NCBI RefSeq assembly: GCF_017309385.1
Contig: NZ_JAFJMJ010000002.1
Span: forward strand, 1,116,001 to 1,180,000
DNA length: 64,000 nucleotides
Direction of reading: 5' to 3'
From: Amycolatopsis sp. 195334CR
Lineage (GTDB): Bacteria > Actinomycetota > Actinomycetes > Mycobacteriales > Pseudonocardiaceae
The position numbers and the translations under genes are program-made. The notes below the pieces were generated by a model. The model saw nothing but the letters and a program-made list of their open reading frames with translations. It was not told where the DNA came from and did no database searches. Shown here one piece after another: positions 34,533-35,435 of the stretch. Position 1 is the first letter of the stretch, and each line of letters starts with the position of its first letter.

Positions 34533-35435
34533 ATGGCCTCCGGAAACGGCACCCGACCGATCATCGCCTTCATGAGCGACCTCGGCATCACCGACGATTC
34601 GGTGGCGCAGTGCAAGGGCCTGATGATGAGCGCCTGCCCCGACGTGACCATCGTCGACGTCTGCCACACGATGACGCCGTGGGACGTGGTGGAGGGCGCG
34701 CGCTACATCGTCGACCTGCCGCGCTTCTTCCCCGAGGGCACGGTGTTCGCCACCACCACCTACCCGGCCACCGGCACCTCCACGCGTTCGGTGGCGCTGC
34801 GGATCAAGCAGGCCGCCAAGGGCGGCGCGCGTGGCCAGTGGGCCGGCGCGGGCGCCGGTTACCAGCGCGCCGAGGGCTCCTACATCTACATCGCGCCCAA
34901 CAACGGCCTGCTCACCTCCGTGATCGAGGAACACGGGTACCTCGAGGCGTACGAGGTGTCCTCGACCAAGGTCATCCCGGAGGCCCCCGAGCCGACCTTC
35001 TACAGCCGCGAAATGGTGGCGGTGCCCTCCGGTCACCTGGCCGCCGGCTTCCCGCTGAACGAGGTCGGCCGCCCGCTGGCCGACGACGAGATCGTCCGCT
35101 TCGACCGGAAGAAGGCGACCAAGGACAAGCAGGGCGACCTGCTCGGCGAGGTCACCAACATCGACCACCCGTTCGGCAACATCTGGACCAACATCCACCG
35201 GGTGGACCTGGAGAAGAACGGGATCGGGTACGGCACCAAGCTCAAGATCGTGCTGGACGACGTGCTGCCGTTCGAGCTGCCGCTGAGCGAGACCTTCGCC
35301 GACGCCGGTCCGGTCGGCACGCCGGTCGCGTACCTGTCCAGCCGCGGTTACCTGGCGCTGGCGCGGAACGCGGCCAGCCTCGCCTATCCCTACCACCTCG
35401 AAGCCGGCATCCCGGTCCGGGTCAAGGTCAGCTGA
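34533..35435 (+). CDS. flA: Fluorinase (5'-fluoro-5'-deoxyadenosine synthase, EC 2.5.1.63)
   Basis: A 300-aa SAM-dependent fluorinase, joining fluoride to C5' of S-adenosylmethionine and releasing methionine; it makes the C-F bond. By memory the sequence follows the Streptomyces cattleya enzyme almost throughout. Asp16 (FMSDLG), Trp50 (TPWD), Tyr77 and Thr80 (TTYPATGT), Ser158 (TFYSRE) and Asp211/Asn216 (IDHPFGN) are the known substrate and fluoride contacts. The loop at 92-114 (around [13 protein letters not shown]), present in fluorinases but absent from DUF62 SAM hydrolases and the chlorinase SalL, is here. The start is fixed by AAGGAG 9 nt upstream. It leads a run with flH, dehydratase and SDR genes. 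Confidence 0.97.

Follow-up and report, generated by a model that had tools for sequence, protein, structure and literature searches.

Few natural organofluorine compounds exist, and 4-fluorothreonine has been called the sole natural fluorinated amino acid so far (PMC7162832, 2020; PMC9609677, 2022). Together with fluoroacetate, it is the product associated with the fl cluster of Streptomyces cattleya and the nob cluster of Nocardia brasiliensis, the transaldolase of the latter being 659 amino acids long (PMC3999930). In Streptomyces sp. MA37, FdrA, FdrB, FdrC and FdrD are counterparts of SalN, SalH, SalM and SalO from salinosporamide biosynthesis; the fdr genes lie remote from the fluorinase gene, FdrC converts 5-fluoro-5-deoxyribose to 5-fluororibonate, and 5-FHPA is proposed to accumulate (PMC5947533). 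An Amycolatopsis fluorinase with seven fl-type neighbors has also been described (PMC9234330). Here we analyze a stretch of 64,000 nucleotides from Amycolatopsis sp. 195334CR (contig NZ_JAFJMJ010000002.1, positions 1,116,001–1,180,000, forward strand; hereafter the window) that carries a fluorinase (adenosyl-fluoride synthase) gene at 34533–35435 on the plus strand, inside a 20-kb core (30.2–49.7 kb of the window). From the sequence, we put at about even the chances that this fluorinase-family enzyme belongs to a conserved cluster for a C5-fluorinated, isoleucine-like amino acid, from which an altered second isoleucyl-tRNA synthetase (IleRS) likely shields the producer.

The fluorinase open reading frame begins with ATG directly downstream of an AAGGAG ribosome-binding site and encodes 300 residues. 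The protein scores 572.9 bits against the NCBIfam adenosyl-fluoride synthase equivalog TIGR04507 (cut-off 400), which excludes a chance match, and less than one-third of the cut-off against each of the two S-adenosylmethionine (SAM)-hydrolase equivalogs listed. Its top match among solved structures is 1rqp (533 bits), which we take to be the S. cattleya enzyme, and the fluorinases 5lmz/5b6i score 518 bits, compared with 168–173 bits for the solved chlorinases of the 2q6 entries, 167.8 bits for SalL and 81 bits for the DUF62 protein 2zbu. A preliminary description of the locus had named the gene a fluorinase on account of Asp16, Trp50, Tyr77, Thr80, Ser158 and Asp211/Asn216 and of an extra loop at residues 92–114 that sets fluorinases apart from SAM hydrolases and chlorinases. 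Membership in the family is borne out by the equivalog score, every one of these residues is confirmed by alignment, and the protein aligns best with fluorinases and not with SalL or the loop-less DUF62 proteins. Residues D16, W50, Y77, T80, T155, F156, Y157, S158 and D211, as well as F214, N216, W218, F255, S270, R271, R278, N279 and A280, match those of 12 other fluorinase loci (L003–L014), the exceptions being Phe at position 50 in five loci, Tyr at 214 in two, Phe157 in L012, and altered positions 278 and 280 in L013. The 23-residue loop is found in the window protein and in all 12 loci and is missing from seven of seven usable DUF62 outgroup rows (an eighth, L017, was excluded) and from a chlorinase-type protein described below. 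The C-terminus carries the RNAA motif, described as a fluorinase marker (PMC12871659), in company with Thr80 and Ser158. Across 118 aligned database fluorinases (120 listed, this protein counted, minus two shorter than 285 residues), no substitution occurs at D16, Y77, T80, T155, D211 or N216, and the loop is ungapped; the window protein is 77% identical to P0291, named the "cattleyicolor" enzyme.

The genome holds a single gene of the fluorinase family. TIGR04507 was detected in 1 of 394 genomes sampled from the class, namely this one, in 3 of 390 family genomes, this one counted, and in none of 14 control genomes; a large protein collection contains 180 relatives at E ≤ 1e-90. The fluorinase gene in itself is thus rare, yet of an already known kind, and the unusual aspect of the locus, a pathway apparently directed toward an isoleucine-like product, was overlooked in the preliminary description.

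In the pathway that we infer, in which all substrates, the sequence of reactions, the end product and the role of the IleRS are predictions from homology, the fluorinase would convert SAM and fluoride to 5′-fluoro-5′-deoxyadenosine (5′-FDA). A phosphorylase of the MTA/5′-FDA type (MTAP; 30213–31082, minus strand; TIGR01694 297.6 bits, cut-off 274.85; PF01048), FlB/SalT-like by kind, would release 5-fluoro-5-deoxyribose-1-phosphate, with adenine salvaged by an adenine phosphoribosyltransferase (APRT; 40660–41229, plus strand; assigned by family search). A YmdB-like metallophosphoesterase (33529–34308, minus strand; PF13277 205 bits), which adjoins the halogenase or the dihydroxyacid dehydratase gene in L003, L008, L011, L014 and L106, is a candidate for the subsequent dephosphorylation to 5-fluoro-5-deoxyribose, the SalN/FdrA role. 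A short-chain dehydrogenase (SDR; 38505–39272, plus strand; assigned by SDR family scores), with copies 63–78% identical in L003, L008, L011, L012, L014 and L106, would take the SalM/FdrC role and yield 5-fluororibonate, as in Streptomyces sp. MA37. A dihydroxyacid dehydratase-family enzyme (DHAD; 36826–38508, plus strand) would then take the SalH/FdrB role and form 5-fluoro-4-hydroxy-2-oxopentanoate. It scores 727 bits against PRK00911 (cut-off 644) and 609.6 bits, slightly below the cut-off of 618, against ilvD, and the genome has two more DHADs (782 and 715 bits) that are both above the ilvD cut-off.

5-Fluoro-4-hydroxy-2-oxopentanoate is a 2-oxo acid with an acidic C3–H, the kind of substrate that undergoes SgvM-type methylation, and is also the fluoro analogue of the pentenoate hydratase product. 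A metal-dependent C-methyltransferase (MT; 44044–45051, plus strand) would add a methyl group at C3 to give the 3-methyl-2-oxopentanoate skeleton of isoleucine with fluorine on C5, its cofactor being recycled by S-adenosylhomocysteine hydrolase (AhcY, FlI-like by kind; 31251–32690, plus strand; TIGR00936 625 bits, cut-off 497.6), a PfkB-family kinase (42820–43860, minus strand; PF00294) with a presumed adenosine/ribose kinase role, and SAM synthetase (MetK; 39462–40649, plus strand; PF02773/PF02772/PF00438). A 2-oxopent-4-enoate hydratase-like enzyme (DmpE/MhpD; 45560–46372, plus strand; TIGR03220 244 bits, below the cut-off of 409; PF01557), running in reverse, would strip the 4-hydroxyl group; saturation of the resulting bond may fall to an oxidoreductase or an acyl-CoA dehydrogenase, and a branched-chain aminotransferase would provide the amino acid. 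The ordinary IleRS would load this product, which the cluster IleRS would either reject at its synthetic site or clear at an editing pocket that lacks the histidine excluding isoleucine.

The assignment of MT is based on sequence and on a structure model. Its closest solved relatives by sequence are SgvM, MppJ and MrsA, all α-keto-acid C-methyltransferases, and in a Foldseek search with the MT model (mean pLDDT 83) the top 24 matches are to the same three proteins, at 20–26% identity. The metal ligands of SgvM are H244 and H296 (PMC10502145), and these align, by positions counted by eye, with H258 and H311 of MT (numbering of the 355-residue form that starts at 43984). Both histidines are conserved without exception in the 19 homologues aligned, which were hand-picked from 120 listed, and a motif search finds both in 97 of the 120; 22 of the other 23 fail only the pattern for the second histidine. 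MT scores 113.6 bits against the 2-ketoarginine methyltransferase model TIGR04543, below its cut-off of 425. MT belongs to the α-keto-acid C-methyltransferases; one of these, MppJ, has been described as related to a further keto-acid methyltransferase (PMC11117315).

The cluster IleRS (46454–49687, plus strand; ileS 797 bits) is a second copy beside the ordinary one and a candidate self-resistance copy of the target. The other IleRS of this genome (contig C3, 843 bits) is 38.7% identical to it and has the signature HYGH, which is replaced by GVHH in the cluster enzyme, GXHH in place of HXGH (PPTANGKPGVHH). This swap has been tied to mupirocin hyper-resistance in IleRS2 (PMC10485003). In the editing site, numbered from the motif WTTTPWT (T241–T246) and the histidine nine residues ahead of D342, the equivalents of Thr243 and His333 are replaced by Met and Ser, and Thr246 and Asp342 are kept. 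In Escherichia coli IleRS, His333 and Thr246 exclude isoleucine from the editing site, and the H333A substitution raises isoleucyl-tRNA hydrolysis ∼20-fold (PMC9023258). Met243 is present in all 10 fluorinase-linked IleRSs that could be read and Ser333 in 5 of them; three of the 10 lie in one block with the fluorinase gene and seven on contigs of equal size, and the IleRSs of G790 and G791 enter no count. By comparison, 17 of 17 other IleRSs read in the searched genomes with a fluorinase or MT have Thr243 and His333. The best 120 database IleRSs divide into 73 with Thr/His and 47 with a residue other than Thr at 243, of which 27 carry Ser333, 19 carry His333 and one could not be assigned at 333. 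The cluster enzyme shares 60–75% identity with the IleRSs of other fluorinase contigs, other families included, all of which have a changed Thr243. Judging from a reference title in PMC9609677, trifluoroisoleucine is taken up by ordinary translation.

The window proteins were compared by tblastn with the 12 fluorinase loci (10 kb on each side) and then with larger stretches. Nearly the same set, reordered, forms a single block in Actinoallomurus iriomotensis (G786) and on a 56,607-bp contig of a Streptosporangiales metagenome-assembled genome (MAG; G789). Both share AhcY, MTAP, MetK, APRT, the LuxR-type regulator, the cyclase, IleRS, the hydratase, MT, PfkB, the HpcH-type aldolase, SDR, DHAD, the CPA2 antiporter, the fluorinase and the phosphoesterase with the window, and weakly (31%) the acyl-CoA dehydrogenase. 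Both blocks also contain an amino-acid permease, a major facilitator superfamily (MFS) transporter, an M20 peptidase, an Lrp/AsnC regulator and an FlK-type thioesterase (families checked on one copy each, two for FlK), and in G789 a branched-chain aminotransferase (477 bits, cut-off 307) adjoins the phosphoesterase. In Solihabitans fulvus (L014), 14 window genes have counterparts in the stretch compared, with IleRS and MT on a contig equal in size to that of the fluorinase. A Chloroflexi MAG (L012; cluster at L012:7839–15354) has MTAP, SDR, fluorinase, MT, hydratase, cyclase and a homologue of a 171-residue window protein; between its MT and hydratase genes lie one for a 4-hydroxy-2-oxovalerate aldolase, which scores 448 bits (cut-off 286), and one for an acylating acetaldehyde dehydrogenase, which scores 283 bits against PRK08300 (cut-off 166). 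Within 10 kb on each side, three Streptomyces loci have in common only MTAP, the antiporter and regulators, with AhcY and APRT in part.

Co-occurrence was assessed on the best 120 matches to each protein, so that the counts are lower bounds, with distinct contigs of at least 3 kb paired by equal size and the present contig excluded (81 contigs for the fluorinase, 91 for MT and 118 for IleRS). This procedure gives 14 fluorinase–MT, 8 fluorinase–IleRS and 7 MT–IleRS pairings and five contigs with all three; with sizes shifted by 3–60 bases as a control, the means are 0.25, 0.31 and 0.46 and the maxima 2, 2 and 4, in the same order of pairs. In a fluorinase tree of 36 rows, chosen by label as a subset of the available rows, the seven Streptomyces rows fall into a single clade (SH-aLRT 99). 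A single origin of the IleRS-bearing clusters was considered and is unsupported on this tree, where rows bearing MT or IleRS are scattered; label shuffles are equally low in 338 of 500 cases for IleRS, 150 of 500 for MT and 3 of 500 for the rest. A proteobacterial MAG fluorinase (L013:10001–10879), 63% identical and altered at the RNAA motif, has within 20 kb no neighbor shared with the window gene set.

Most of the set also surrounds a different halogenase. In G657, a genome of the same family (56,918-bp contig; L106:1007–14835), the cyclase, phosphoesterase, DHAD (70% identity), APRT, MTAP, MetK, HpcH-type aldolase, SDR (63%), hydratase and MT (55 and 52%, respectively) and a distant antiporter match (28%) surround a protein 37% identical to the fluorinase. 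This protein scores 272 and 264 bits against the two best solved chlorinases and 175 bits against a solved fluorinase, lacks the loop and has Gly at the Ser158 position. The later genes accordingly accompany the SAM-halogenase reaction with either halide, and the G657 cluster is apparently a chlorinated twin of the pathway. The gene kinds of the sal/fdr oxidative module are present with a SAM-halogenase in both the window and G657. In G629 (L110:5620–12797), a divergent MT (38%) lies beside a second IleRS, a class I/II aminotransferase and a match to the nonribosomal peptide synthetase (NRPS) query, with no fluorinase match in 20 kb; this second IleRS has the signature GTHH and keeps Thr/His in the editing site. 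Pairing of MT and IleRS thus occurs without fluorine. Besides G657, three genomes of the family, G767, G437 and G629, have an MT and no fluorinase, and their MT contexts gave no fluorinase match.

Several observations weigh against a fluorinated isoleucine as the product. No aminotransferase and no clearly conserved reductase was found in the window cluster. MT at E ≤ 1e-50 occurs in five of the 390 family genomes, this one and four that have no fluorinase. Among contigs of at least 15 kb, 18 with MT pair with none in the fluorinase list and 36 of 45 with a fluorinase pair with none in the MT list (best 120 matches each), although one of the 36, that of G789, does carry MT by tblastn. Amycolatopsis bartoniae has a fluorinase–DHAD–SDR–MetK–APRT block, no MT and one ordinary IleRS only, and G657 yields just one IleRS at E ≤ 1e-100, with the HYGH signature. 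Of the 47 non-Thr243 IleRSs among the best 120, 9 are fluorinase-linked, so the change also occurs without a known fluorinase link. Because the E. coli double mutant T243R/D342A is without editing, Met243 may mean that editing is lost instead of redirected. The HpcH/HpaI-family aldolase of the cluster (42074–42823, minus strand; PF03328; HpaI 178 bits, below the cut-off of 369) could cleave the keto acid with release of fluoroacetaldehyde instead, and a route to fluoroacetate would fit the FlK genes of the sister clusters and a relative elsewhere in this genome.

Four other readings have to be set against these data. A SAM hydrolase or chlorinase would share the superfamily, and with it the matches to SalL and 2zbu, but the far higher score of 1rqp and the presence of Ser158, Thr80, the loop and the RNAA motif leave this reading hardly credible. 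In the second reading, which we hold to be unlikely, the cluster leads to fluoroacetaldehyde and fluoroacetate by another path, in which the HpcH/HpaI-type enzyme would cleave 5-fluoro-4-hydroxy-2-oxopentanoate to pyruvate and fluoroacetaldehyde, the latter then being oxidized, and MT and IleRS would serve elsewhere. The window cluster and those of L008, L011, L014 and L106 have such an aldolase, and L012 has its own aldolase and acylating dehydrogenase. Both full sister clusters contain genes for FlK-type fluoroacetyl-CoA thioesterases (95 and 94 bits against PF22636, cut-off 27), and the present genome has a relative (L085, C2:2779646–2780065), 1.6 Mb from the cluster, 62–64% identical to that of the Actinoallomurus cluster and 62% identical to that in L078, as well as a weaker second match. 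This route leaves MT, the hydratase and the altered IleRS unexplained though they travel with the fluorinase, and no 4-fluorothreonine transaldolase of known size is found among the SHMT-family genes. The enzyme looked for has a serine hydroxymethyltransferase (SHMT) domain and ∼650 residues, and the frames of the four SHMT-family genes of this genome span 431–492 residues; 4-fluorothreonine was rejected as the product for lack of a transaldolase-sized gene.

Alternatively, the C3-methylated fluoro keto acid could feed the adjacent NRPS for a fluorinated peptide, with the IleRS as a target copy conferring resistance to this peptide instead of to a free amino acid. The genes for acyl-CoA dehydrogenase, NRPS, MFS transporter, MbtH and thioesterase do follow IleRS on the same strand, several of them overlapping, and G629 combines MT and a second IleRS with an aminotransferase and an NRPS-query match, but the stretches of G786 and G789, which match in other respects, have no NRPS match, and we regard this proposal as doubtful. 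It is more doubtful still that the IleRS with GVHH simply came along by horizontal transfer, as a mupirocin-resistance copy that has nothing to do with the fluorinase. A GXHH IleRS is present as a non-cluster copy in seven of nine fluorinase genomes with readable copies, but the housekeeping type here is HYGH, and the cluster copy is akin to those Thr243-altered copies on fluorinase contigs. We favor the fluorinated isoleucine because it alone among the readings considered gives one common reason for MT, the hydratase and a spare IleRS.

Further genes of the core are a cyclase-family protein (32753–33529, minus strand; PF04199), a counterpart of FdrD/SalO by kind only; a CPA2 cation/proton antiporter (35505–36848, plus strand; TIGR00932 125 bits, below the cut-off of 238), FlH-like by kind; a response regulator with a LuxR-type helix-turn-helix (41393–42073, plus strand; PF00072 and PF00196); and, between MT and the hydratase, the 171-residue protein (45048–45563, plus strand), which has no Pfam match and aligns with a 39% identical copy in L012. 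Its structure model was discarded (pLDDT 38), and the G786 and G789 stretches have no tblastn match to it. Downstream of IleRS, a plus-strand region at 49787–52247 encodes a cupin, a zinc-type quinone oxidoreductase (50149–51099) and an acyl-CoA dehydrogenase (51096–52247), possibly for reduction steps. The NRPS operon (52249–59813, plus strand; C-A-T-T, C, MFS, MbtH and thioesterase, the MFS and MbtH labels being read from translations) is of uncertain cluster membership and was rejected as a core part on the G786/G789 comparison. Beyond an AraC-like regulator lies a tandem CrcB/Fluc fluoride-channel pair (60668–61395, minus strand; PF02537 89.5 and 88.1 bits). A second such pair is on contig C4; the pair in the window possibly provides extra fluoride export for the cluster or is ordinary, its link to the cluster being uncertain. 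No Rfam match to a fluoride riboswitch reached the gathering threshold within the window. At 61688–64000 (plus strand), a pyridoxal phosphate-dependent decarboxylase (PF00282) followed by a monooxygenase-like gene, read from translation, resembles the start of a desferrioxamine-type siderophore cluster.

The gene content and families of the locus, its conserved residues, the conservation of the set and the halogen swap are observed features. No description of this cluster type was found in the literature searched, which comprised titles and the beginnings of abstracts, with most subscription journals outside the search; in three papers that also mention fluorinase (PMC8659048, PMC9609677 and PMC10324308), "fluoroisoleucine" occurs only within "trifluoroisoleucine." We tentatively suggest, at somewhat less than even probability, an undescribed and widely scattered class of organofluorine clusters in which fluorination, oxidation, dehydration and C3-methylation would lead to a C5-fluorinated isoleucine. 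A dedicated IleRS with an editing pocket opened for the clearance of fluoro-isoleucyl-tRNA would act as the guard, and the class would include a chlorinated twin. If so, the Streptomyces fluoroacetate/fluorothreonine route would represent a single late branch within a wider world of fluorinases. A second fluorinated amino acid with a tRNA-synthetase guard would open a new enzyme route to fluorinated branched-chain building blocks and provide a natural test of how translation excludes a fluorinated isostere, and its chlorinase counterpart allows a direct test of whether the later steps are blind to the halogen.

In terms of known systems, the locus resembles fl and nob in its fluorinase, 5′-FDA phosphorylase type, AhcY, antiporter and APRT. 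MTAP, AhcY, APRT and antiporter neighbors are the kinds found at known organofluorine loci (PMC3999930), in support of the preliminary description of the window as a probable organofluorine locus. It differs from fl and nob in having no gene of 4-fluorothreonine transaldolase size and in having the SDR, DHAD, C-methyltransferase, hydratase and second IleRS. The MT shares with SgvM, MppJ and MrsA the fold, the two metal-binding histidines and the best solved matches, whereas it is distant in sequence and stands in a cluster with a halogenase. The cluster IleRS shares the GVHH signature with the mupirocin hyper-resistant GXHH IleRS2 type and differs from it by the Thr243-to-Met and His333-to-Ser equivalents. 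With the fdr genes of MA37 and the sal genes, the locus has in common the phosphoesterase, DHAD, SDR and cyclase kinds and the oxidative route from 5-halo-5-deoxyribose; whereas the fdr genes are remote from the fluorinase gene in MA37, their counterparts in the window adjoin it and are followed by the methyltransferase, hydratase and IleRS.

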